The notes under the pieces are model-generated. The model had not been told where the DNA came from, did not search any database, and worked only from the letters and a program-made list of their open reading frames with translations. A stretch of DNA of 64,000 nt from an uncultured Eubacteriales bacterium (GTDB lineage: Bacteria > Bacillota > Clostridia > Lachnospirales > Bianqueaceae), in contig OMYN01000011.1 in the NCBI GenBank assembly GCA_900315265.1, positions 1-64,000 on the forward strand. Direction: 5' to 3'. Shown here one piece after another: positions 12,045-61,470 of the stretch. Position numbers and translations under genes: made by a program. How positions within the stretch are numbered: the stretch's first letter is position 1; every line of letters begins with the position of its first letter.

Positions 12045-14483
12045 TCAGACGCGGACCTTGACTTTAAGATCAGTAGCTTCTTTATAAGGACGAACCAGCA
12101 TATAAATGATCACGCCGATCATGACAAGCGCGGCAATCAGACCTAGTACATTCATGTTGCCTGTGAAGACACATCCGATCTGGTAAATGATCAGGCTTAC
12201 CGTATAAGCCCAGCCGCACTGATATGCGATGGCGAACCAAGTCCATTTTGCACTGTTCATTTCACGCTTGATAGCACCGATCGCTGCAAAGCAGGGAGCG
12301 CACAGAAGGTTGAAAGCAAGGAAAGAATAAGCGGACAACGGAGTAAAATGAGCGGCTACGTTGTTCCAGATCTGCCATCCGTTTTCGGCAACATCGCTGC
12401 CGGCACCGTAAAGGATACCGAAGGTACCAACAACGTTCTCTTTGGCGATCAGGCCGGTGATCGTAGCAACGGCTGCTCTCCAGTTGCCCCATCCCAGAGG
12501 ATTGAAAATAGGAGCGATCGCATTTCCGAAGGCTGCCAGCATGGACTGATCCATATCGACCATACCGAAGGAGCCGTTTACAAATCCGAAACCGGACAAG
12601 AACCAGATAAGGATCGTGGCCAGCAGGATGATGGAACCGGCTTTTTTGATAAAGGACCAGCCGCGCTCCCACATGGAACGAAGAAGGTTTCCGACCGTCG
12701 GCCAATGGTAGGCAGGAAGCTCCATAACGAAGGGAGCCGGGTCACCCGCGAACATCTTTGTTTTCTTCAGCATGATACCGGAAATAATGATCGAAGCGAT
12801 CCCCAGGAAGTATGCGCTGACGGCGATCAGGCCGGAGTTGTGGAACAAAGCACCCGAGATCAGGGCGATAATAGGAAGCTTTGCCCCGCAGGGAATGAAG
12901 GTGGTAGTCATAACGGTCATACGGCGGTCGCGCTCGTTTTCAATGGTACGCGTCGACATGATTCCGGGAACGCCGCAACCGGTACCGATCAGAACGGGAA
13001 TGAAGGATTTTCCGGAAAGTCCGAACTTACGGAAGATACGGTCCATGACAAAGGCGATACGGGCCATATAACCGCAGCTTTCCAAAAATGCCAGGAAGAG
13101 GAACAGGACGAACATCTGGGGAACAAAGCCCAGAACGGCGCCGACACCGGCAACGATACCATCGATCACTAGACCGTGCAGCCATCCGTCTTCAGGAACC
13201 TTCAGAGCATCAAGCAGTTTCTCAACAAGGACCGGGATACCGGGGACCCAGACTCCGTAATCTGCAGGATCCGGTTCCTCGATGGTAAGATCTTTTTGAT
13301 AATCTTCATAGTCAGTCGGGATCTCGTCTGTAACATTGCCGTCATCATCGTACAGGTAGGCAATCGTCGTCAGATCTTTGGCATCTGCAGGATCCACGCC
13401 TTCTTTTTCCGCGGCTCCTTCAAAAGCTTCGATCTGAGCGCCGGGGATCTCGTATGCCTCGGCTGCTTTTTCATAATCAGCCGTGCCGATCGAGAAGAGA
13501 TGGTAGCCGTCGCCGAAAAGCTGATCATTGGTAAAATCGGTCACCCAGCCTCCGACCGTCGTTACGGATACATAATAAACGATCAGCATAACAATGGCAA
13601 AGATAGGAAGCGCCAGCCAGCGGTTGGTAACCACCTTATCGATCTTATCAGATACGGAAAGCTTGCCTTTATCCTTCTTTTTAATGACTCGGTTGATGAT
13701 CGAGGTAATGTAATTGTAGCGCTGATCGGTAATGATGCTTTCCGCATCGTCATCCAGTTCGGCTTCGGCTGCTTCGATATCCTTTTCGATATGGTCGCGG
13801 GTCGCCTGGTCCAGCTTAAGCTGTTCCATGACTTTTTCATCGCGTTCGAAGATCTTGATGGCATACCAGCGCTGCTGCTCGTCCGGATAATCATGAACGC
13901 AGGCTTCCTCGATATGGGCAAGCGCGTGCTCGACTACTCCGCTGAAATTGTGAGCGGGCGAAGGATGAATATCTGCTCTGGCCGCATCAACGGCTGCCTT
14001 GGCCGCTTCTTTGATGCCGGTCTCCTTCAAAGCGGAGATGGGTACTGCTTTTACTCCCATAGCCTTCTCCAGCTCTTTCAGGTCGATCGTGTCGCCCTTT
14101 TTATTGACGACATCCATCATATTGACAGCTATGATGACCGGGATGCCCAGTTCGGTAAGCTGGGTCGTCAGATAAAGGTTTCTTTCAAGGTTTGTGCCGT
14201 CGACGATATCAAGAATGGCATCGGGACGGTCCTGAACCAGGTAATTTCTGGCTACGACTTCCTCCAGTGTGTAAGGGGAAAGAGAATAAATACCCGGAAG
14301 GTCCGTGATGGTCACATCTTCATAACCTTTTAACTTTCCTTCTTTTTTCTCGACAGTTACTCCGGGCCAGTTTCCTACGAACTGGTTTGCGCCGGTTAAA
14401 GCATTGAATAACGTTGTTTTACCGCTGTTCGGGTTACCCGCCAGGGCAATCGTTATCTTTTCTCTGCCTATGGCATTGCTCAT
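12045..14483 (-). CDS. feoB: Ferrous iron transport protein B
   Basis: An 812-residue Fe(II) transporter. The N-terminal G domain has GNPNSGKTT (residues 17-25), DLPG near 61 and NMMD near 121. The helical S domain follows. The membrane part includes the two conserved Gate regions, for example PCGAKLPIIA. Between the first and second membrane helices (about residues 320-420) lies an acidic, low-complexity segment rich in Asp and Glu that is longer than in the classic E. coli protein. It is third in feoA-feoA-feoB, 52 bp after the second feoA. Confidence 0.96.
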   Translation of the reverse strand: MSNAIGREKITIALAGNPNSGKTTLFNALTGANQFVGNWPGVTVEKKEGKLKGYEDVTITDLPGIYSLSPYTLEEVVARNYLVQDRPDAILDIVDGTNLERNLYLTTQLTELGIPVIIAVNMMDVVNKKGDTIDLKELEKAMGVKAVPISALKETGIKEAAKAAVDAARADIHPSPAHNFSGVVEHALAHIEEACVHDYPDEQQRWYAIKIFERDEKVMEQLKLDQATRDHIEKDIEAAEAELDDDAESIITDQRYNYITSIINRVIKKKDKGKLSVSDKIDKVVTNRWLALPIFAIVMLIVYYVSVTTVGGWVTDFTNDQLFGDGYHLFSIGTADYEKAAEAYEIPGAQIEAFEGAAEKEGVDPADAKDLTTIAYLYDDDGNVTDEIPTDYEDYQKDLTIEEPDPADYGVWVPGIPVLVEKLLDALKVPEDGWLHGLVIDGIVAGVGAVLGFVPQMFVLFLFLAFLESCGYMARIAFVMDRIFRKFGLSGKSFIPVLIGTGCGVPGIMSTRTIENERDRRMTVMTTTFIPCGAKLPIIALISGALFHNSGLIAVSAYFLGIASIIISGIMLKKTKMFAGDPAPFVMELPAYHWPTVGNLLRSMWERGWSFIKKAGSIILLATILIWFLSGFGFVNGSFGMVDMDQSMLAAFGNAIAPIFNPLGWGNWRAAVATITGLIAKENVVGTFGILYGAGSDVAENGWQIWNNVAAHFTPLSAYSFLAFNLLCAPCFAAIGAIKREMNSAKWTWFAIAYQCGWAYTVSLIIYQIGCVFTGNMNVLGLIAALVMIGVIIYMLVRPYKEATDLKVKVRV

Positions 14484-14535
14484 TGATTCTGCTCCTTTTG
14501 CAACCTGCAGTTTGCTTTGATTCGTTAACGTACTA

Positions 14536-14757
14536 TTATTCGACTTCTACCATTTCGGCATCGTTTTTACGTACCGAAAGTTCGTACCCGCGTACCGTAA
14601 CTTCCACCGGATCCCCAAGGGGAGCAACTTTACGAATATAAATCTCTGTCCCTCTGGTGATACCCATGTCCATGATACGCCTTTTAACAGCGCCTTCACC
14701 GTGAAGCCTTACGACTTTAACAGTACTGCCGATCGGCGCATCGCGCAGTGTCTTCAT
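14536..14757 (-). CDS. feoA: FeoA domain protein (second copy)
   Basis: A 73-residue SH3-like FeoA protein starting MKTLRDAPIGSTVKVVRL, with the typical VKRRIMDMGITRGTEI pattern and VRGYELSVRKNDAEMVEVE at the end. FeoA is a small cytoplasmic partner of FeoB. It is closer to canonical FeoA than its upstream neighbour. GGAGGGATAAC precedes the ATG. Confidence 0.93.
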   Translation of the reverse strand: MKTLRDAPIGSTVKVVRLHGEGAVKRRIMDMGITRGTEIYIRKVAPLGDPVEVTVRGYELSVRKNDAEMVEVE

Positions 14758-14816
14758 GTTATCCCTCCTTCCTGGTGAAAATTGATAAGATCATAAAATC
14801 TTCTAAGATAGGTCGG

Positions 14817-15044
14817 TCATTCCGCCACCGGATCTACCATGATCCTTGATGACATCTCTTTGCTGACCGCGACTCGCGAACCTTTTACGTCGCAGATCGT
14901 GTTACCGTTGACGCTGGTCACTACTTTGATCGTATGGCCGACAGCAAACCCCAATTCTTCCATATGGTTTTTAATATCGGGGCTTCCTCCCACTTTACGG
15001 ACGGTTACGACGGAACCTGCTTCGATCAAGGGCAATGGAAGCAT
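14817..15044 (-). CDS. FeoA domain protein (first copy)
   Basis: A 75-residue FeoA-like protein with LIEAGSVVTVRKVGG, MEELGFAVGHTIKVV and DVKGSRVAVSKEMSSRIMV. An in-frame start 15 codons upstream is unlikely; the ATG at 15044 follows a perfect AAGGAGG with 9-nt spacing. As first gene behind the regulated promoter it should respond to iron. Tandem feoA genes before feoB are common in Clostridia. Confidence 0.9.
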   Translation of the reverse strand: MLPLPLIEAGSVVTVRKVGGSPDIKNHMEELGFAVGHTIKVVTSVNGNTICDVKGSRVAVSKEMSSRIMVDPVAE

Positions 15045-15086
15045 AATGGCACCTCCTTGGTTATATATGGCTAACTTGATTACGAA

Positions 15087-15115
15087 CATAATGTTAGTAC
15101 TGTCTAACCATTATG
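15087..15115. promoter_or_regulatory. Inverted-repeat operator in the feo promoter (DtxR/IdeR-like)
   Basis: The plus strand reads CATAATG-TTAG-N6-CTAA-C-CATTATG, a nearly perfect inverted repeat with one extra base. The TTAG/CTAA half-sites recall metal-dependent DtxR/IdeR/MntR operators. The octamer GCTAACTT recurs on both sides (15070-15077 and 15132-15139). The regulator itself is not in the window. Confidence 0.6.
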
Positions 15116-16425: not shown

Positions 16426-17163
16426 TTACTTGAAGAAGTTATGTCCGCCGTAGCCGCCCGTATAAGTCAGGTTGTTCTCAAACCAGGAATAATCCGCGTT
16501 GCAGGATACGAAATATAAGGAACCATCCGTATAATCGACCCCGCTGATCGCGGTATCAACCGCTTCGATGACCGACTCGGACGGGACAGCATCATAATAA
16601 GTGCCGTTGCTGACAGGTTCAAACTGGCCATCTGAAAAGACAATGTCTGCTACGGTAGAACCGTAGCCTGCCTTCAAACGGTTCAGAATAACATCGGCAA
16701 CCATGACCTGACCGTGCTGGTCTTCGCAGCCGGCCTCCGCCATAACGATCTTTTCAAGGATCTGACGATCGTCCTGGGAGATCTGTATAGGCTGAAGGCT
16801 GTCCTCAGCAGTGCTTTCTTCTTCCGTCTGATCCGCTGTATCTGTCTCACTTTCCAGGACCGGCTGGCTGCTTTCTTCCGCAGCAGAACTTTCCCGGACA
16901 GATGCGATAGCCTTTGTCTTTGCGGAAACGCTGCGCTCCGCAGAAGATCCTTTGGCCTGAGCTGTTTCTTTGACTACTTCATCCTGCTTTTCGAGACTTG
17001 GTACATTCGATACCGGTTTCTCCTGTGTTACCGTCGTTTCTTCCTTATCGGAGACGGCCGTACCGGTACTGTCTGCCGGAGTGTACGCGCTTATATCGAA
17101 TGAAAAACCGATCGTCACCGCCAGCATGACACTTATGACAATATAACAGATTCTGCCTTTCAT
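16426..17163 (-). CDS. Secreted cell wall hydrolase, SleB/CwlJ family
   Basis: A 245-residue exported protein. Residues ~5-25 are a signal segment, residues ~30-130 are a Ser/Glu/Thr-rich linker, and the last ~110 residues are the hydrolase_2 (SleB-like) domain. That domain starts ILEKIVMAEAGCED, where Glu143 is at the place of the catalytic acid, and has VMVADVILNRLKAG. Such domains cleave peptidoglycan glycan strands. I chose the ATG at 17163 because AAGGAGG lies 5-6 bases upstream; a start 8 codons earlier has no such site. Family membership does not mean spore germination, since vegetative members are common in Lachnospiraceae. Confidence 0.88.
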   Translation of the reverse strand: MKGRICYIVISVMLAVTIGFSFDISAYTPADSTGTAVSDKEETTVTQEKPVSNVPSLEKQDEVVKETAQAKGSSAERSVSAKTKAIASVRESSAAEESSQPVLESETDTADQTEEESTAEDSLQPIQISQDDRQILEKIVMAEAGCEDQHGQVMVADVILNRLKAGYGSTVADIVFSDGQFEPVSNGTYYDAVPSESVIEAVDTAISGVDYTDGSLYFVSCNADYSWFENNLTYTGGYGGHNFFK

Positions 17164-17320
17164 TTTTCCTCCTTGCAAAGCCTGCATCGCAGACTTCCGG
17201 GAGAATTTCAGGCAACATGCTCTGTGTTTTTTCTCACCTTGCTCTTCTTCTCTATGTCTTCTATCCGGCGGAACTTACCGCCGATGTGCTGGATCCCGGG
17301 TTCGGGAGATCCCGAACAAT
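17164..17320 (-). promoter_or_regulatory. Long structured 5' leader of the wall hydrolase gene
   Basis: About 155 nt separate the promoter from the start codon. It holds a perfect GTTCGGGA/TCCCGAAC hairpin (17300-17317), a CGGCGG/CCGCCG hairpin with 6-nt loop (17266-17283), and GCCTG/CAGGC arms near the ribosome binding site (about 17179-17213). It does not match a riboswitch class that I can recognise. Confidence 0.5.
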
Positions 17321-17361: not shown

Positions 17362-19929
17362 TCAATAGCGGGGACGATAACCGTTATCCGGCATCTTGAG
17401 GCGGTAGGACTGAGGATTTTTGGTTATCCTTCCCTGATTCCGGTTCATACTCTGCTGACTACTGCTTGTATAGGGGCGTGATTGACGTTCATAGGGACGT
17501 TCATAGGAGTCGCGGTCATAAGGCTTCTCATAGGGCCGGTTATAATTTTTCTCATAACTTTTTTCATAAGGCCGTTCGTAAGTCTTGTCGAACCGTCTTG
17601 TCTGACGCTGAGTCTGTTCTTCCGGATTCTGACCGGGCTTAAGCCAGTCGGTATAGGGTTTGCAGACCAGGCGGGCATCCAGATAGGCGCGGTCAAGCTG
17701 CAGGACCGTCTGTCCCTGGTAACTGCCGGACGGATTCTTTTTGACCACCAGCGCGGCATCGATATGATCATCGTCCTCCAGGCACAAAGGAAGCATCATA
17801 CTCATGCTGTTTCCTTTGGGGAAATAGCAGGGGATCGCCGTGCGGAAGTTCCAGCGGACTTTTTTCAGTGAAAATTCAATAGCATCTTCCATGCGGCTTC
17901 TCAAACGGCGGTAGATCTTGTCGTTTTCTTCGATATACTGAGAAAGTTCGTAATACGCCTGTTTCCTGCGTTCACCTGTGCCCGCGTTTTCGATGCGGCT
18001 GATGCCGTCCTGGGCCTGCTGGTCGCCGTAACAGCACTCCCTCAGATATCCCAAAGGCAGCCGGTTGAGGTTGTCCAGGATAATATGATCATAATCCGTG
18101 ACCAGCTCGCAATTGGGATCATAGAACATATCCTGCTTATTATCAAAGTATGAAGCCTGTTTGGGCAGGGGATTGAAATAATTGGTCAGCAGTTTGCCGT
18201 AGCCGTCTTTACCGCGGATGCCCGCAATGACAAAGGCCTCGAATTTCCACTTGGGCGAGCCTTCCGCCCCTTCGGTGTTAGGCGTAAAGCAGGCATAAAT
18301 ATCATCAAAATGATTATTGACCAGGCCTGTGTTGAAAGCGGCAAACTTTTGGTCTTCGGATACACAGACCTTATCCTCCTGCAGCAAACGGTAAAAAGTA
18401 TATTGAATATATTTTTTGAGAATATAGAAACGGCCGAAACGACGTTCGTTGTCATCCCAATTCTCGGTCAGAGCGATCCCGGCCAGTTCCCTGAGGAAAT
18501 CCTGCCAGTAGCCCAGGTCCGCGAAATGCTCCAGGGCCTTGCCCGGACGAGTCACATTGTCACCGAGATCGTCTTCTTTTTCCTCCTCGTCGTCCGCTTC
18601 CTGCTCGCGATCCGGATAATCGATATAACCGAGATACCAGGGACGGCCTGCCTTGCGTATACTGCGTTTTAAAACAGCGACCATACCGGGCGCCGGTTCC
18701 CACTTGACCGGGAAGGTAATAGAATCGGGCCGTTTGACGAAGGTCTGCTCCTTGATAGAATCCTCGTAAGAAGAGCGGATGATCGTGATGGGGTCCGGAA
18801 GCCCCATATTCATCAGATAAGTCTGCAGTTTAGGAGAAAAATATACCATCTGCTCAAAGCGGCTGGCCGGCTGCCGGCCCTCATTCTCAGGATCCGCCGC
18901 ATCGTTATCGTCCTTATCCTTAAAAGTGAAGGAACCGCCCTGTTCCCTGTCCGACGCAAACCGCATGCTGCCGGATGAGGACCGTATGTTGGAAGAAGAA
19001 TCTTCCCTGCTATCCTCTTCTTCATCCTGGTCGTAACGGGGCTTGTTTACTTTTGCAAGAGCCTCTTCCACGATCTGGTCGTTGGTTTTGCCCGTCTCTG
19101 CAGGCGCTGCCGGCACTGCCGTGTCCGTTTGAGGAGTAACCCCCTCCGAATAAGCAGGATCTTCATCGGCTGTCGGAGCTTTCTGCCTCTGTTTTCCGGG
19201 AAGGACCGTTACCAGGATATTAGCCGGGGGATTTTTACCTGTATTGACCAGCTGTACATATTCAGGCATCTCGCTGAGCAAATTTCTTATTTTATCAAAA
19301 CCGTATAGTTCAGGACGGTAGCCGTTTTTTAAAAGATAACGGCTGACAGCCGTCAGGTGCTGAGGCTGTCCGGGCGTAAATTTTTCCAAAAGGACCTGGT
19401 AGATCGATTCTTTTACCGAATCCGTCAGATACAAATGATCCCCCTGTTCCTCAAAGGCACCGGACCGGCTGCCTGAAGAGTCACGTGACTCGTCACGGTA
19501 CGAATAATCTTCATCTTCTTCAGCTACGGCCGGGGATACATAATCCCCTGACCGGACCGTCCGGGCCCGGCGGATCACGATGGGACCGTCATCCTCTTCT
19601 TTTGAGGTCTTTCTGTTGTCAGAAGAAGGTTTATTTGCCATAAACCAGCTGGGATAAGTCTTGGAAGCCTGATCCGGCTCCGGTTTATCCTGCCACTCAT
19701 GCAGGGTCACATTGCAGTTGGAATGTCCTTCATATTCATATTCTTCCAGGGTACAAAATTCAGGCATAGCTGCCATAAGGTCCTTCATATGGCGGAAACC
19801 GTAGGAACGGCAGCGGATCCTGGACATAGACAATTCCTTACCGACTGCGGAAAGCGGATACTTTTCGTTAATATTAAATTTTGAAGTTAACAGATCATAG
19901 ATCTTTAACTTGTCCTCTGTTGTCAGCAT
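17362..19929 (-). CDS. Protein with two LOTUS/OST-HTH-like domains, a DUF3825-like region and a Tyr/Arg repeat tail
   Basis: An 855-residue cytoplasmic protein with no signal peptide or membrane helix. Two winged-helix-like segments resemble LOTUS (OST-HTH) RNA-binding domains: residues ~3-80 (RSYGFRHMKDLMAAMPEF) and ~170-245 (ELYGFDKIRNLLSEMPEYVQL). Both share the YGF...LL..MPE core. Acidic, Ser-rich linkers follow each (80-165, 250-355). Residues ~465-770 form a globular region resembling DUF3825, from memory. The tail 784-820 repeats the motif Y-E/N-R/K-P/S-Y, giving a Tyr/Arg/Lys/Pro-rich disordered end. LOTUS domains bind RNA, including G-quadruplexes, so an RNA-related role is inferred; no reaction is known. 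It starts 44 nt after rex and is probably co-transcribed. Confidence 0.7.
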   Translation of the reverse strand: MLTTEDKLKIYDLLTSKFNINEKYPLSAVGKELSMSRIRCRSYGFRHMKDLMAAMPEFCTLEEYEYEGHSNCNVTLHEWQDKPEPDQASKTYPSWFMANKPSSDNRKTSKEEDDGPIVIRRARTVRSGDYVSPAVAEEDEDYSYRDESRDSSGSRSGAFEEQGDHLYLTDSVKESIYQVLLEKFTPGQPQHLTAVSRYLLKNGYRPELYGFDKIRNLLSEMPEYVQLVNTGKNPPANILVTVLPGKQRQKAPTADEDPAYSEGVTPQTDTAVPAAPAETGKTNDQIVEEALAKVNKPRYDQDEEEDSREDSSSNIRSSSGSMRFASDREQGGSFTFKDKDDNDAADPENEGRQPASRFEQMVYFSPKLQTYLMNMGLPDPITIIRSSYEDSIKEQTFVKRPDSITFPVKWEPAPGMVAVLKRSIRKAGRPWYLGYIDYPDREQEADDEEEKEDDLGDNVTRPGKALEHFADLGYWQDFLRELAGIALTENWDDNERRFGRFYILKKYIQYTFYRLLQEDKVCVSEDQKFAAFNTGLVNNHFDDIYACFTPNTEGAEGSPKWKFEAFVIAGIRGKDGYGKLLTNYFNPLPKQASYFDNKQDMFYDPNCELVTDYDHIILDNLNRLPLGYLRECCYGDQQAQDGISRIENAGTGERRKQAYYELSQYIEENDKIYRRLRSRMEDAIEFSLKKVRWNFRTAIPCYFPKGNSMSMMLPLCLEDDDHIDAALVVKKNPSGSYQGQTVLQLDRAYLDARLVCKPYTDWLKPGQNPEEQTQRQTRRFDKTYERPYEKSYEKNYNRPYEKPYDRDSYERPYERQSRPYTSSSQQSMNRNQGRITKNPQSYRLKMPDNGYRPRY

Positions 19930-19973: not shown

Positions 19974-20621
19974 TCATGAATGGTCTGTCTGATTATGCAG
20001 CCGATAGGATAGTCTCATTATACTGTCCGACAGATGTGCGCTTTCGATCACTACATTCGAACCGGGAAGTTCCAGGTCCATGGATGCAAAATTCCAGATA
20101 CCCTTGATACCACATTTGTCCAGAAGTTTGGCCATGGGGACCGCTTCACTTTTGGGAATGGTCAATACACCGATATCAACATTATTATTTTTTACAAAAT
20201 CTTCGATTTCAGAATCAGCCATAACGGTAAGTCCGTTCACGACCGTGCCGATCAGAGCCGGATCTTTGTCAAAAAGTGCAATGATATGAAAACCTCGTTT
20301 GATAAAATTAGGATAGTTGACTAGTGCCTGTCCGAGATGACCTGCTCCGATGACTATGACATTGTGGAGTTTATCGATTCCAAGGATCTTAGCGATCTCT
20401 TCATGAAGCGATTCGACATTATAACCATAGCCCTGCTGCCCGAAACCACCGAAATGGTTAAAATCCTGGCGCACCTGGGAAGCGGTAAGTCCCATGCGTT
20501 CGCTTAATTCTCCGGATGAGATTCGGGTGATGCCGTTATCGATCAACTCTTCCAGATAACGGTAATATCGAGGCAGTCTTCGAATGACAGCGTCGGAAAT
20601 ATAATCATTTCTGTTATTCAT
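19974..20621 (-). CDS. rex: Redox-sensing transcriptional repressor Rex
   Basis: A 215-residue repressor that senses the NADH/NAD+ ratio. The N-terminal winged helix includes RLPRYYRYLEELI and SSGELSERMGLTASQVRQDFNHFGGFGQQGYGY. The Rossmann domain has VIVIGAGHLGQAL (about residues 90-102), and the C-terminal domain-swapped helix ends the protein. Rex controls fermentation and NADH oxidation genes in Clostridia. Start ATG follows AAGGAG. First gene of a likely two-gene unit with the LOTUS-domain gene. Confidence 0.95.
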   Translation of the reverse strand: MNNRNDYISDAVIRRLPRYYRYLEELIDNGITRISSGELSERMGLTASQVRQDFNHFGGFGQQGYGYNVESLHEEIAKILGIDKLHNVIVIGAGHLGQALVNYPNFIKRGFHIIALFDKDPALIGTVVNGLTVMADSEIEDFVKNNNVDIGVLTIPKSEAVPMAKLLDKCGIKGIWNFASMDLELPGSNVVIESAHLSDSIMRLSYRLHNQTDHS

Positions 20622-22752: not shown

Positions 22753-23538
22753 TTACTTTTTAAATCCTAAAACCTCGATCTTCAGCTGCAGCCGGCCGGA
22801 CCGGGAAAGGCCTCTGTCTTCCAGTATCTTCATTTTTCCGTGGCCTCTGGCTGAGATCCTGTCACCGACAGCTCCCTTGCTGTCTGCCTTAGTGACCGCC
22901 AGCCCGTTGCGGGTAACGAGTCCCTGTGAGATCAATTTGACAGCTTCGCCCCGCCCCATACGAAAGCCATGGCTGACCAGGGTATCTATCCTCATGGAGG
23001 CAACACTGACGACAGATTCGACTCCTTTTTCCGGAGGAGGAAGCTGATCGGCTCCGATCCGCTCGACCGAGACGACGGCGGGTCCCACCGACGCTAGATT
23101 ATCGATCAAATAGTCGGCTATTTCGTCTTTGACCAGCAGATAGCCAGAGCTGTCTTTGGTCAACAAGTCACCGGTCTTTTCCCGCTTGATGCCGGTGCCC
23201 ATGACTGCTCCCAGATAGTCCCTGTGCTCGAGAGGGCGCTTCAAAAAGCGGCGGTCGGCCGGACTGATCTTCAGGACTGCTATCTCGCCTGCGGCCATGT
23301 CTTCCACCGAATCCTGCAGATAGTCCGGGTATAAGACGGCAATGACCCGCTCAGCATCCGGATAACCTCCGAAAAGGGCCAGACATGACGGAAGCCTTCC
23401 TTCCAGTTGGGAAAGAAGGCCTCTTTGATGATCATCTAAAAAATCCGAAAAAGCGGCATATCCGCCTCGCGCGGCCTGATCGGCCAGATCACTGATATGG
23501 GCAAGGAACCACTTATCGTCATCCTGCTTAGTTATCAA
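22753..23538 (-). CDS. ylmH: YlmH family RNA-binding protein (S4 domain)
   Basis: A 261-residue protein with an N-terminal YlmH domain and a C-terminal S4 domain (RIDTLVSHGFRMGRGEAVKLI...). YlmH homologues bind stalled 50S subunits in ribosome quality control and sit next to sepF in Firmicutes. Longer frames starting at 23616 run deep into sepF. I chose the TTG at 23538, which overlaps sepF by 11 bp and has GGAG 9 nt upstream. No ATG is in frame at a suitable place. The following residues, ITKQDDDKWFLAHI, suit a YlmH N-terminus. Confidence 0.82.
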   Translation of the reverse strand: MITKQDDDKWFLAHISDLADQAARGGYAAFSDFLDDHQRGLLSQLEGRLPSCLALFGGYPDAERVIAVLYPDYLQDSVEDMAAGEIAVLKISPADRRFLKRPLEHRDYLGAVMGTGIKREKTGDLLTKDSSGYLLVKDEIADYLIDNLASVGPAVVSVERIGADQLPPPEKGVESVVSVASMRIDTLVSHGFRMGRGEAVKLISQGLVTRNGLAVTKADSKGAVGDRISARGHGKMKILEDRGLSRSGRLQLKIEVLGFKK

Positions 23539-24142
23539 TATCCGAATCTCCGTAAATAAAGCCAAGGCCGTTGTCATCTGACTCGATGGAACGGCGAAGA
23601 TCGACGTCGCTGGCAAAATCGATATTTTCGGGAGCGATCATAAAGATCTTGTTGGCGATGCGTTGAATATTTCCGTCCATGGCGCAGCAGGTGCCGCATA
23701 AAAAGTCGGTTATGCGCTGAGCGATATCATGAGCAACGAATTCAAGATTGATAATGACCGGCTGGCCGTTTTTGATCCTTTCGGCGATATCTCTGGCTTC
23801 GTCAAAGCTTTCCGGGCTGGCAACGACCACTTCCATCTGAACATTGGCATTCAGATTGAGCACTTTGCTGCCTCTTCCCTGTCCGGACGACTGGACCGAA
23901 CGGACATTGCTTACATGGTAGCCGGTGCTGGGACGGGAATAGGTCTCGGGATCCCGCTGCACGGATGCACGGGAATAATCACTGCGTCCGGATGAATAAG
24001 AAGGACGTGAGGTATAGGTATCCTCGTCTTCGTAATTGTCGTCTTCCTCATAATAATCATCATTGGACTGCTCCTGAGGAGCTTCATTATCCTGCTCACC
24101 AAAGCCGAGAACATTTGCTATCTTATCGAAAAATCCGCTCAT
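23528..24142 (-). CDS. sepF: Cell division protein SepF
   Basis: A 204-residue protein. The N-terminal amphipathic membrane anchor (MSGFFDKIANVLGF) is followed by a long acidic, Tyr/Ser/Arg-rich linker (about 15-95). The conserved SepF core starts near VQMEVVVASPESFDEA and includes VIINLEFVAHDIAQRITDFLCGTC. SepF links FtsZ to the membrane. The linker is longer than in Bacillus. It starts a new transcript within the division cluster: sepF, ylmH, lspA, rluD-type. Confidence 0.93.
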   Translation of the reverse strand: MSGFFDKIANVLGFGEQDNEAPQEQSNDDYYEEDDNYEDEDTYTSRPSYSSGRSDYSRASVQRDPETYSRPSTGYHVSNVRSVQSSGQGRGSKVLNLNANVQMEVVVASPESFDEARDIAERIKNGQPVIINLEFVAHDIAQRITDFLCGTCCAMDGNIQRIANKIFMIAPENIDFASDVDLRRSIESDDNGLGFIYGDSDIDN

Positions 24143-56534: not shown

Positions 56535-58082
56535 TTATGCCTTCTCCAGCATTTTTTCCGGATAAATATGATCGACCAGGTCACTGGCGCACATTCCGTA
56601 TTCGCCTACATCTTCCTTAGCCAGATCTCCGGCGGCTCCGTGCATGAAGACACCCAGGCAGGCAGCCCTGAAAGGATCGCACCTCTGTCCCAAAAGGCCT
56701 CCGATCATGCCGGCCAGTACATCGCCTGAACCGGCCGTCGACATGCCGTTGTTCCCCGTCGAATTGAAAAAGATCCTTCCGTTAGGCTCCGCGACGACGG
56801 TCATAGCATCTTTCAAAACAGCGATACTTGAGAATTCATGAGCCAGCGCCTTGGCGGCTTCGACCGGTTCGTCCATGATCTGACCGACCGAAACTTTCAG
56901 AAGACGCGAAGCTTCGCCCAGATGAGGCGTGAGGATGGTATTTCCTCCGCGCTCGCAGATCAGACGGTGCAGCTCTTCGCTCTCGGAAAGCCAGTTGAGA
57001 GCGTCGGCGTCCAGTACCATAGGTTTATCGGCCGGGACCGATGCAAAAAGGTGTTCCAGCATCTTACCGACATAAGGCTCCCTGCCCAAGCCCGGTCCTG
57101 CTACAAAGCAGGAAGAGGATACGACTTTATCATCGATCCATCCGAAAGAAGCATCGTTTGTATCATAGGGAGTGCAGATGACCTCAGGAAGACGGCTCAT
57201 CAAAACCGGGGCTGCTTGTGCCGGGATCGCCGCCTCGACCAGTCCGGCCCCTACTTTATAAGCACTCTTGGCTGCAAACATAGCCGCCCCGGTCATGCTG
57301 CGGCAGCCGGCGACCACCAGAAGATGTCCGTACAAGCCCTTGTGAGACCGATGTTTACGGACGGGCAGCATATTTTTCAGATCGCTGTATTCCAGTTGAA
57401 ATTCAAGACTCTCTTTTAACGGCGGAATGTTTTCGGGGATGCCTATATCCGCGACCGTTACTTTGCCGGCGCAGTCGCGTCCGGGGAACAATAACAGACC
57501 CGGTTTCAGACGGCTGAAGGTAATGGTCTCATCGGCTTCGATCGCACAGCCCAGGATCTTGCCGCTGTCTCCCTGGACTCCCGAAGGGATGTCCACAGCC
57601 AGAGTCTTGAAAGGATAGACCCTGTGAGCTTCATTGACGACCGTAATGATCTGCTTGTAAAAACCTTCGACCGGACGGTCAAGACCCGTCCCGAACAAAG
57701 CATCGACCACGACTTCCGCCTGCTCCAAAAGCCGGGCAAAGGCAGCCGACTGGGACATGTTCAAAACGGATACCTGGTAGCCGGGCAGCATGGCGAAATT
57801 CGTCGCTGCGTCACCCTTGTAGGAAGCAGGGTCCGAGGCCAGAAAAATGCGCACATTATGACCGCGGGACTTGAGCATGCGGGCGGCGGCAAAACCATCG
57901 CCTCCGTTGTTGCCCCCTCCGCACAGGAAAAGGACCCGGCAATTGAGGCCACCCATCTGTTCTACTTTATCGGCTACTTTACCGGCAGCTGCTTCCATCA
58001 AAATCAGGCCGGGAACTTTCATTTCTTCAGCCATATAGCGGTCGGCTGCCCGCATCTGGCCGGTCGAACTGATCCATTTCAT
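56535..58082 (-). CDS. nnrDE: Bifunctional NAD(P)H-hydrate epimerase / ADP-dependent dehydratase
   Basis: A 515-residue fusion that repairs hydrated NAD(P)H. The N-terminal YjeF_N epimerase domain (about 1-215) has [16 protein letters not shown] and [14 protein letters not shown]. The C-terminal kinase-like dehydratase domain has [25 protein letters not shown] and [16 protein letters not shown]. The ATG at 58082 overlaps the previous stop in an ATGA arrangement. NAD kinase is also encoded in the window, but in another operon. Confidence 0.94.
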
Positions 58083-60709
58083 GATTCCAATGCCCTCACG
58101 ATCCTGACTAATAGATTGCCCAGCCCCGGGTTGTACCCGCTGCCGGCGAAATAACCGCACAGACCTTCATGGGTCACGATGACCAGAGGAAGCTTTCCGG
58201 CGTCCACATACATGCGCCTTTCCAAAGGTTCCACATTCTCAAAGCCCTTGTCTTCTACGATATGGACCTTTGGGAACATAGCCGCCGCCCTGGCCAAGGT
58301 CGGCTGCTTGAGTGCTTCTTTGGACTGAACGAAAAAGAAGATCCCGGCCTTAAGGCTCTCGAAGTCCTCGCAGTTTTCCATCATTTCATTCAAAATGTGC
58401 TCGGTAGGCTCCCTGCCCTCGTCCAGCCATAAAAGCAGATTGGTCCGCTCTGTAAGAAGCGAAGAGGCCATGACCGGAGGCTGACTGTTGACTGTAAAAT
58501 CATCGATCTGATTATGAGCCAGCATCTCTTTCAGATCGACCGGCCTCTTTTTAAGGACAAGGGAGGTCTCCTGCCCTTTTTCAACGGTAAAGTAATAGGC
58601 GTAAGCATATTGGTGGCCGTTGGGCAGACGGTTGACCGTCAGCAGGCGGTAGCTGCCGGCTTCAACGGCACTTCTGACCGTTTTATCCGCCCGCGGCGCT
58701 TCGATATCGATCCGCCGGTATATACCCTGGTCATCGATCTTACTTACCGTTACGGACTGACGATAGACCCAGTCCTCCCCGCCGGCCGTCAGCTTCAGAT
58801 ACCCTTTCTGGATAGCTTTGACCGGATCTGCGGATACGAAACGCCCTCCCTTAAAGTACTGGGGCTCCGACGTGACCGGATCCAGCCTGGCCGGGATGCC
58901 GAGCGTTCGGCAGACAGCTACAAAAAGGATCTTATAACCGACCGTCCCCGTCAGTCCGCTGCTCAGCGAAGCCGCCGGAGTGTTGTACAGGTCCTTGTAA
59001 TCGATGTCGTAAACGACCTTCAGGTTCTCCCGGATCCAGGTCATGATCTTCTTGGGACTGCGGCGGAAAAGATGCTGCTGCCAAGGAGTGAAAAAGTTCT
59101 GGATATAAGCCCGGTAGGCCGTCAAAGTTTCGTTATAGACACGGGGATTCAGCACATATTTGACGAACACGTCCGGGTCGCAGCCTTTCAGATAGGGCAG
59201 CGAACAGTATAGATGATCTTCCAAAATGCCCCTAGACACGTCGCACAGATCCTTCTTGGTCAGCACTTTCAGCAGCTTTTCCCGCCATATGTCATCTTCA
59301 AAGGCCGCTTCATTGAGGAACTGGTAGATCTCGTTGAAGTTGCCGCCGGCTTCCCTTAAAAGCTCCTGAAGATCCGGTGTCAGTTTTTCAGCTTCCGAGT
59401 TCTTGTAGAAACTGTCTCGGCGGAACTGCCTTATGCTGTCGCCCAGCCGGATACGGCGGTCACGGTCATGTTTTTCATCCTCCGTCTGCCGCGAAGGATT
59501 GACCGGGGCATCCAAAGGTGCCATGAAGTCAAAGGGTATCCACTGGTTTTGAGTAATTGTCTGTGTCTGATCAGCCAGCACCAGGGTCACATCCTTGTTA
59601 TCCCCATCGTCTGCCTGGCCGATCGTGATCAGTTTTTCGGCGGACAGCAGGGGTTTTACATCTTCCGGCTCCTGGTCTTTATCCGTAATGCCGGTCATTT
59701 GGGGATCTGCTTCCGTATAGGCATGAAGATTCAGGCTGCCTTTGCCTACCATGAGGCGGACAGTCCCCTCAGCATCGGTATGGATAACGCAAGCCGGCAT
59801 CATTCCGGCCATATTCAGGATCTCAAAGCGGACGGGTACGTTGGCAGCCGCCTTTCCGTCCGGACCGGTAACATGGACCGTCAGGTGAGTGACACGGGCA
59901 TAATGATCCGTTACGATCTCATAGGCAACGCCCTCTTCCAGATGAAAACGGTCCGCCTTGTCGCCGTACAGAAAAGCCAGATCCCTGTCGTTTTCCGCTC
60001 CGGTGAAGGTACGGGTGACCATGAACATAGACCGGGATGCCGCATTGTTGAACCAGCCTATATCCAATTTCTGCTGAGGTTCGCAGGCCCCGATAAAGTG
60101 CCATCTGCCGTCTGCCAGGACTTCGACCCAGGCATGATTGTCATCGCAGTGGGACCACCAGGGAGCATAGATCTGCCGGGCAGGGATCCCGACGCTGCGA
60201 AGGACATTGACGACAAAGGTCGATTCCTCGCCGCACCGGCCGAAACCGGAACGGTAAACCGTCATGGCCGACTTGGTCCGGTCATCCGCCTGCTGATAGG
60301 TCACATGCTGCTGGCACCAGTAATTGATCTCCAGTACCGCCTGTTCTTCGGACAAATTGCAGACCTTGTCCCACAGCTGGCGGTAAAACAGGCGCCTGCA
60401 TTCCTCCATATCCTCGGTATTGATACGGGGATAAAAGACATAATCGATAAAGGTCTGCTCGTCGATCGAACGGCACCACCAGGCCGTCCGCCGCAGCATC
60501 AAAGCATGCTCGATATAAGGGATCCAGGTCTCTGTCGGATAATTGACCAGGTCCGCGACCGGAAGCGTGGCGTAAAGGTAGGTCATCCACTCACGGATCG
60601 GGCTCTTTAACTTACGGATCTCCACGTCGCAGCGGGCGCCGAATTCATGAAGGCGTTTCGCTCTCTTTTCCCACTTGGCGACCGCGTACTGATAACGTTT
60701 CTCTTCCAT
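58079..60709 (-). CDS. Large transglutaminase-like protein with a second degenerate core and a thioredoxin-like C-terminus
   Basis: An 876-residue protein with no signal peptide or membrane helix. The first transglutaminase core has the Cys in SGFGRCGEES (about residue 159), His in DDNHAWVEV (about 192) and an acidic residue in GACEPQQ. A beta-rich segment follows (~265-380), including an Ig-like VPVRFEI...DAEGTVRL. Residues ~545-620 repeat the core pattern (SGLTGTVGYKILFVAVCRTLGIPARLD) but lack the catalytic Cys. The last ~120 residues look thioredoxin-like without CXXC. The ATG at 60709 overlaps the cutC stop and has GGAAAG 9 nt upstream; an ATG three codons earlier is also possible. Substrate unknown. 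Confidence 0.78.
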   Translation of the reverse strand: MEEKRYQYAVAKWEKRAKRLHEFGARCDVEIRKLKSPIREWMTYLYATLPVADLVNYPTETWIPYIEHALMLRRTAWWCRSIDEQTFIDYVFYPRINTEDMEECRRLFYRQLWDKVCNLSEEQAVLEINYWCQQHVTYQQADDRTKSAMTVYRSGFGRCGEESTFVVNVLRSVGIPARQIYAPWWSHCDDNHAWVEVLADGRWHFIGACEPQQKLDIGWFNNAASRSMFMVTRTFTGAENDRDLAFLYGDKADRFHLEEGVAYEIVTDHYARVTHLTVHVTGPDGKAAANVPVRFEILNMAGMMPACVIHTDAEGTVRLMVGKGSLNLHAYTEADPQMTGITDKDQEPEDVKPLLSAEKLITIGQADDGDNKDVTLVLADQTQTITQNQWIPFDFMAPLDAPVNPSRQTEDEKHDRDRRIRLGDSIRQFRRDSFYKNSEAEKLTPDLQELLREAGGNFNEIYQFLNEAAFEDDIWREKLLKVLTKKDLCDVSRGILEDHLYCSLPYLKGCDPDVFVKYVLNPRVYNETLTAYRAYIQNFFTPWQQHLFRRSPKKIMTWIRENLKVVYDIDYKDLYNTPAASLSSGLTGTVGYKILFVAVCRTLGIPARLDPVTSEPQYFKGGRFVSADPVKAIQKGYLKLTAGGEDWVYRQSVTVSKIDDQGIYRRIDIEAPRADKTVRSAVEAGSYRLLTVNRLPNGHQYAYAYYFTVEKGQETSLVLKKRPVDLKEMLAHNQIDDFTVNSQPPVMASSLLTERTNLLLWLDEGREPTEHILNEMMENCEDFESLKAGIFFFVQSKEALKQPTLARAAAMFPKVHIVEDKGFENVEPLERRMYVDAGKLPLVIVTHEGLCGYFAGSGYNPGLGNLLVRIVRALES

Positions 60710-61470
60710 TACTGCCATCTTTCCAGACCGGCATCCAGAGCCCGGCTGGCCTTTCTTACAAGTGTTTCATCCGTTCTCATCAAGTCGAATTCACTGAAAC
60801 TGTCAAGTCCCATGGGGACCCCTTCTTTACGATATTTCATACCGCTTTCAAGCGTTACCTTGCCGGACATATGAAAACTGGTAAGAGGGATGGTTTCCAG
60901 CATGGCCGAAATGACAGACGCATTGACGCCGGCCCCCGCTAAAATATCCACTTTTCCTTCGGCCCGTCTGACCAGCTCGGCTATCAGATCTTTTCCTTCC
61001 AGGGCTGACTTTTTCTGGCCGCTGGTAAGGATGGTGTCGATGCCAAGTTCTTTACATTCTTCCAGGGTTTTGAAAGGATCTTTGCAGACATCAAAAGCCC
61101 GGTGAAGGGTAACACTCATGTCACCCCTTTGAGCCAGCAGTCTCTTCATTTTGTCGAGGTCCAGGTCTCCTTCCGGAGTCAGGCAGCCGATCACGACACC
61201 GTCGGCCCCTGCCTTTCTGAATTCGGCGACTTCTTCCTCAAGGATGTCCATTTCATAATCCGAGTATAAAAAATCACCGAAACGAGGTCTTAAAAGGACA
61301 TGGACCCTAAGACCGGGCGTCAGTTTCCTTACCTCCCGGTAAAGAGCCAGCGTCGGGGTAGTTCCGCCAACGATCAGATCCTGACACAGCTCCAGCCGGT
61401 CTGCTCCGCCTTTATATGCATTCAAAGCAGATTCAGGGCTGTCGACACAGCATTCCAGAATTCGTTTCAT
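60709..61470 (-). CDS. cutC: CutC family protein
   Basis: A 253-residue TIM-barrel protein starting MKRILECCVDSPESALNAYKGGADRLELC, with VIGCLTPEGDLD and ILTSGQKKSA. It was first named for copper homeostasis in E. coli, a role later questioned; recent work links the family to sugar or lactonase-like chemistry only loosely. First gene of the operon cutC - transglutaminase-like - nnrDE - ung, and next to a LacI regulator. AGAGGAATAAT precedes the ATG. Confidence 0.9.
   Translation of the reverse strand: MKRILECCVDSPESALNAYKGGADRLELCQDLIVGGTTPTLALYREVRKLTPGLRVHVLLRPRFGDFLYSDYEMDILEEEVAEFRKAGADGVVIGCLTPEGDLDLDKMKRLLAQRGDMSVTLHRAFDVCKDPFKTLEECKELGIDTILTSGQKKSALEGKDLIAELVRRAEGKVDILAGAGVNASVISAMLETIPLTSFHMSGKVTLESGMKYRKEGVPMGLDSFSEFDLMRTDETLVRKASRALDAGLERWQ

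Follow-up and report, generated by a model that had tools for sequence, protein, structure and literature searches.

The gene described here lies on the minus strand of a 64,000-nucleotide stretch of an uncultured, gut-type Eubacteriales bacterium of the Clostridia (contig OMYN01000011.1; hereafter the window), and encodes a protein of 855 amino acids whose ATG is preceded by the ribosome-binding-like sequence AAAGG (Table 1). Two OST-HTH (LOTUS) domains, each followed by a linker, precede a domain designated M, the Pfam domain of unknown function DUF3825, and a tail rich in tyrosine and arginine; the domain borders were taken from family profiles built here. The genome contains one DUF3825 gene and one OST-HTH gene, the latter matched at 25.1 bits, above the cut-off. 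Directly upstream, a gene for a Rex-like redox repressor is separated from the LOTUS gene by a gap of 44 bp with no terminator-like site, and the two genes are likely co-transcribed. This gene order is partly conserved in the family, with Rex or rluD upstream and the hydrolase gene and queA downstream. A perfect sigma-70 consensus (TTGACA-17-TATAAT, 17355-17327, minus strand) lies immediately behind the LOTUS stop codon and reads into the SleB-like hydrolase gene.

Table 1. Features of the LOTUS gene and its direct neighbours in the window
Feature	Position	Strand	Basis or remark
Rex-like redox repressor, directly upstream of the LOTUS gene	19974..20621	-	Rex also upstream in L123 and L124
Whole LOTUS gene, ATG at 19929, stop ends at 17362	17362..19929	-	855 aa: OST, linker, OST, linker, M, DUF3825, Y/R tail
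OST-HTH/LOTUS domain 1, residues 3-81	19687..19923	-	Pfam; family HMM 4e-39; winged-helix model; LOTUS structural neighbours
OST-HTH/LOTUS domain 2, residues 167-243	19201..19431	-	Family HMM 2e-33; winged-helix model; second Pfam stretch
Linker motif RSSSGSxRF..(S/D)..GGSF/GSTF (RSSSGSxRFxGxxxGSTF), residues 316-334	18928..18984	-	Common to L004, L006, L007 and L009 in alignment
M domain, residues 356-440, BECR-like alpha-alpha-beta-meander	18610..18864	-	hhalign; model; VIA match to BrnT, Z 6.2
DUF3825, residues 462-764, two alpha+beta units	17638..18546	-	Pfam E 5.7e-63; pLDDT about 90 or more over most
DUF3825 C-terminal unit, residues 605-757, helical segment then 4-stranded meander, BECR-like	17659..18117	-	Model
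His615 codon, candidate catalytic residue, helical segment	18085..18087	-	Present in 143/153 sequences; loss coupled to that of Thr741
Thr741 codon, candidate catalytic residue, meander strand 4	17707..17709	-	T or S in 147/153 sequences
Y-x-R/K-P/S-Y tail repeats, residues 784-820	17470..17580	-	Repeat count versus shuffles
SleB-like cell-wall hydrolase, downstream of the LOTUS gene	16426..17187	-	Conserved neighbour in L123-L125 and L128

The N-terminal part of the protein matched Pfam PF12872 (OST-HTH) in two stretches with 34.3 bits (cut-off 23.8), and within each stretch lies one of the YGF...(L/M)...MPE segments (residues 43-57, YGFRHMKDLMAAMPE; residues 207-221, YGFDKIRNLLSEMPE) on which the original prediction of two LOTUS-type domains was based. 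In the predicted model of residues 1-250 both segments form winged helices with the element order H-E-H-H-E-E, most blocks having a pLDDT above 90, so that the Pfam match and the predicted topology bear out this assignment. Structural neighbours of the domain pair include the LOTUS domains of TDRD7 (3rco, Z 7.0) and TDRD5 (3s93, Z 6.7), as well as the two-domain structure of Egalitarian (9rvy, Z 7.3), which covers both copies. The LOTUS structures 3rco, 3s93, 2lh9, and 8wxs were all listed, with Tejas among these neighbours, but they stand level with many other winged helices. The top PDB profile match of the region was a bacterial OST-HTH structure (2kzv, E 0.013). Binding of RNA, including G-rich and G4 RNA, has been reported for LOTUS domains, also for bacterial ones, in work cited in PMC12247748.

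The C-terminal region had been described as resembling DUF3825. Residues 482-762 matched the complete profile of PF12873 (positions 1-238 of 238), at the E-value given in Table 1, and the region is therefore a member of this family. Between the LOTUS pair and DUF3825 lies the folded domain M, which the original prediction had missed. Profile comparison by hhalign (probability 94-96%, pairwise E 9e-8 to 1e-8, as compared with 0.1% for the reversed control) shows M to be an additional copy of the N-terminal half of DUF3825 that has diverged, and M units recur in tandem in the family. The model of residues 345-775 (mean pLDDT 90.7, pTM 0.78) contains a helix with a small antiparallel, four-stranded sheet three times, namely in M and in the N-terminal and C-terminal units of DUF3825 (DUF-N and DUF-C). 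Comparison of the two halves of DUF3825 as sequence repeats gave no signal, so the internal repeat of DUF3825 is one of predicted topology, and M and the N-terminal half constitute the repeat pair that is supported by sequence.

Proteins of the BECR fold are defined as having a helical segment and, after it, a 4-stranded meander; strand 4 carries a conserved serine or threonine, and a histidine in the N-terminal part is often present as well (PMC3482391). The model of DUF-C displays this succession of a helical segment and a 4-stranded meander, and the same order of elements is predicted for M and DUF-N. When the M-DUF3825 model was compared with known structures by VIA-align, ranks 1-21 were all occupied by BECR-fold structures (RelE, ParE, HigB, YoeB, BrnT, colicin D, CdiA-CT, and Cami1-RelE), at weak Z-scores of 4-6 that are below diagnostic level. 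These neighbours matched M and DUF-C separately, and the matches covered nearly the whole of the small toxins (75/77 residues of BrnT and 92/92 of ParE). Foldseek searches with the same model found no significant match in the PDB, nor among the BFVD viral models, where even phage DUF3825 proteins were not returned. PDB sequence searches with the M and DUF-C profiles had no match either. Profile comparison with ParE and BrnT likewise gave no signal, but this test has no power because the positive control, ParE versus BrnT, was also negative. The predicted topology of DUF-C is BECR-like, and DUF3825 is a candidate member of the BECR RNases.

The most conserved positions of DUF3825 form a set of His, Thr, Arg, and Tyr residues, among which Arg623, Tyr737, and Arg753 are invariant, and the 855-residue protein retains the full set. 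In the model, His615 is located in a helix (model residues 269-275) and Thr741 in strand 4 (model residues 393-399), and this pair matches the reported BECR active-site signature. Among 153 sequences, 142 have His together with Thr or Ser, none has His without Thr or Ser, and five have neither; another five keep the Thr741 equivalent without His615, which counts against a BECR-type RNase. In a set of 105 sequences, no conserved polar positions that were tested showed coupling apart from the pair His615 and Thr741. A tree-aware count reduced the losses to about five independent events, each of them concordant or neutral, and because relatedness leaves so few, the sign test (p 0.125) cannot reach significance. 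The published active site of CdiA-CT EC3006 consists of K204 and T330 (PMC9086364), and in the structural match to this toxin (6cp8) chain residues 196-336 were aligned with model residues 263-403, with an equal offset at both ends. As this range is all that is known of the alignment, it offers a hint that K204 and T330 would coincide with His615 and Thr741, provided that the ends are joined without gaps. DUF3825 copies that lack both candidate catalytic residues and keep the rest of the domain were found in L126 (same genus), L128, L193, L195, and L047; these copies are probable pseudoenzymes.

DUF3825 might instead adopt a new fold that binds or modifies RNA, with the His and Thr residues serving another reaction or a binding site. 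The lack of a significant match to any known fold and structural Z-scores of only 4-6 would suit this explanation; against it stand the uniform identity of the 21 highest-ranking neighbours, the topology, and a His/Thr signature located where it would be expected, and it is considered unlikely.

The linkers that join the domains had been described as acidic and serine-rich, and such linkers are indeed present at residues 82-166, 244-355, and 440-462, with net charges of -6, -12, and -9, respectively. The second linker contains a motif, listed in Table 1, that is kept in four other members of the genus and possibly represents a short binding motif. The Tyr/Arg repeats of the tail exceed what composition would yield by chance, as the predicted Y-E/N-R/K-P/S-Y units occur six times, versus a mean of 0.04 in 20,000 composition-matched shuffles. 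Among 77 collected homologues, this tail was found in three, all of the genus of the LOTUS gene itself, and most homologues stop soon after DUF3825. The protein had also been proposed to act as an organiser of ribonucleoprotein particles or a condensate former. As a core function this is not backed, because the tail is limited to one genus and most family members end without it; since one of its three carriers (L126) lacks the His/Thr pair, the tail is probably accessory.

On that proposal, the protein would be a non-catalytic scaffold, in which the LOTUS domains and BECR-like units would bind RNA, tRNA, or ribosomes, and the linkers and tail would drive condensate formation. Many members do have long disordered linkers, the tail is shared by three members of the genus, and ParE exemplifies a BECR fold that is able to lack RNase activity (PMC11980606). 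In Slackia exigua (L188), the very long linker between OST-HTH and DUF3825 contains an RGG-rich stretch (RRGRRGGRGRGRGRG), which would also fit a scaffold. Nevertheless, 74 of the 77 proteins lack the tail, and conservation peaks at the His/Thr/Arg/Tyr set with its coupled loss, as is typical of an active site; a non-catalytic scaffold is considered unlikely.

A genome scan with the single protein gave no matches and an alignment was needed as query; the alignment-based scan detected 79 loci in Clostridia and Coriobacteriia. Fusions of OST-HTH with DUF3825 were present in approximately 70 genome loci, and among relatives the distribution of the gene is patchy (10/116 genomes). The 77 proteins analysed were mostly arranged as OST-M-OST-M-DUF3825 (27), OST-OST-M-DUF3825 (22, including the 855-residue protein), OST-DUF3825 (11), or OST-M-DUF3825 (8), with a few other layouts. 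In 33 loci, mostly of the Oscillospiraceae type, a conserved membrane-protein gene is located upstream at short distance. In L134, L136, L153, and about 30 other loci, this membrane protein of some 340 residues with about four hydrophobic segments is encoded directly upstream of OST-M-OST-M-DUF3825; it had no Pfam match above cut-off. This candidate partner was rejected for the present gene, because it is absent from the 64-kb window and is therefore not part of the system here.

DUF3825 also occurs as a stand-alone protein in phages, plasmids, and scattered genomes. It adjoins AcrIIA1 near an integrase gene in Listeria phage A006, follows the lysin gene in a streptococcal prophage, is carried by a plasmid of 3.1 kb, and is found next to or near type I-E cas genes; in viral contigs it lies near genes for integrase, TIR, Schlafen, and DUF4435 proteins. 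Three viral versions (L051, L056, and L079) are fused to a Pfam cold-shock domain. Two further DUF3825 proteins, of L025 and of L049, have an N-terminal M-like region and no OST-HTH; L049 is a gene of a spirochaete (Entomospira) plasmid that adjoins DnaB-like and ParB-like genes. No paper mentioning DUF3825 was found in the open-access literature searched.

These settings on mobile elements, together with the patchy distribution of the gene in relatives, would agree with an effector in conflicts with phages or between elements, in which an accessory RNase of prophages and plasmids would serve in abortive infection or in superinfection exclusion, and the chromosomal LOTUS fusions would be immobile defence versions that sense phage RNA. 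Nonetheless, housekeeping genes surround the LOTUS gene, synteny is conserved across its family, and no antitoxin or sensor partner accompanies it; this role is given a low probability. Assignment to a known defence system was rejected, as PADLOC had no match for the gene, and a type II toxin-antitoxin reading was rejected because no antitoxin gene is adjacent, the neighbours being Rex and the cell-wall hydrolase.

Several known systems share features with this protein. The bacterial proteins that combine an LK-nuclease (DUF88/NYN) with OST-HTH, and limkain b1/MARF1 of animals, link LOTUS domains with a putative RNase domain, in some cases alongside cold-shock or S1 domains, and are scattered among bacteria (PMC2848206). 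In the present protein, by contrast, the putative nuclease is the C-terminal DUF3825, with a BECR-like instead of a PIN-like topology. As no NYN domain was detected in the protein or in its genome, it is not a member of the LOTUS-NYN family; an NCBIfam search of the protein gave no match. With BECR RNases (the RelE/ParE superfamily, colicin D, CdiA-CT of EC3006 and Kp342, and EndoU), DUF3825 shares, in its predicted model, the helical segment and 4-stranded meander, the Thr or Ser in strand 4, and the N-terminal His, and EndoU likewise has two units (PMC3482391). It has no detectable sequence similarity to them, is larger, with two or three units, lacks a partner of the antitoxin or immunity type, and is not one of the 13 Pfam families of BECR toxins that PMC11980606 reviews. 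The stand-alone proteins (e.g., Listeria phage A006 gp21, phrog_11623) have this domain as well, including the conserved His/Thr set, but lack LOTUS domains, M, and the disordered tail, and differ in their mobile-element context. Germ-granule proteins such as Oskar, TDRD5/7, and MIP-1/2 similarly combine LOTUS winged helices with disordered regions, whereas the 855-residue protein has no Tudor domain, SGNH domain, or Vasa-type partner, its C-terminus looks enzymatic, and its condensate-like tail is seen in a single genus.

Of the functions originally suggested, that of an RNA-decay factor is favoured, because of the BECR-RNase-like topology, the coupled His/Thr pair, and the cold-shock fusions of DUF3825 elsewhere; for a silencing factor there was no evidence. 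The gene product may accordingly be viewed, with belief and doubt evenly balanced, as a LOTUS-targeted ribonuclease-type protein, in which the LOTUS pair, given the established properties of such domains, would select RNA that DUF3825 would cut or process, resulting in regulated RNA decay or maturation. DUF-C would provide a metal-independent active site formed by His615 and Thr741 with the assistance of Arg623, Tyr737, and Arg753, while M and DUF-N would act as non-catalytic platforms. The stand-alone proteins of prophages and plasmids may represent the ancestral accessory form, the shared transcript with the redox repressor Rex is probable in this lineage, and the tail would be a genus-specific addition with a possible role in RNA binding or self-association. 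The LOTUS-DUF3825 protein is best explained as a BECR-like endoribonuclease that would be the bacterial equivalent of the LOTUS-NYN (MARF1) proteins, its nuclease fold being unrelated to theirs. The fuller proposal makes DUF3825 a new family of endoribonucleases with the BECR fold, built from two or three units, which bacteria would have domesticated from prophages and joined to LOTUS domains as an independently assembled counterpart of MARF1, with the self-associating tail of this genus gathering the RNase on selected RNAs; it is put forward tentatively, with doubt outweighing belief.

Almost all bacterial LOTUS domains have been described as joined to one type of nuclease, DUF88/NYN (PMC2848206). 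If the proposed function is true, a second, apparently unrelated nuclease-like partner would make LOTUS a general RNA-targeting module for RNases, and a first mechanistic hypothesis would be available for DUF3825, a domain present in numerous phages, plasmids, and members of the gut Clostridia and Coriobacteriia. With His615 and Thr741 as candidate residues, the RNase idea can be tested directly.

Elsewhere in the window, three further loci were observed on the minus strand: a gene for a SepF-like division protein (23528-24142) with an unusually long linker that is acidic and Tyr-rich as well as Ser/Arg/Tyr-rich, a FeoB-like gene with two FeoA-like genes upstream (12045-15089), and a gene for an 879-residue protein (58079-60718) with what look like two transglutaminase-like segments.
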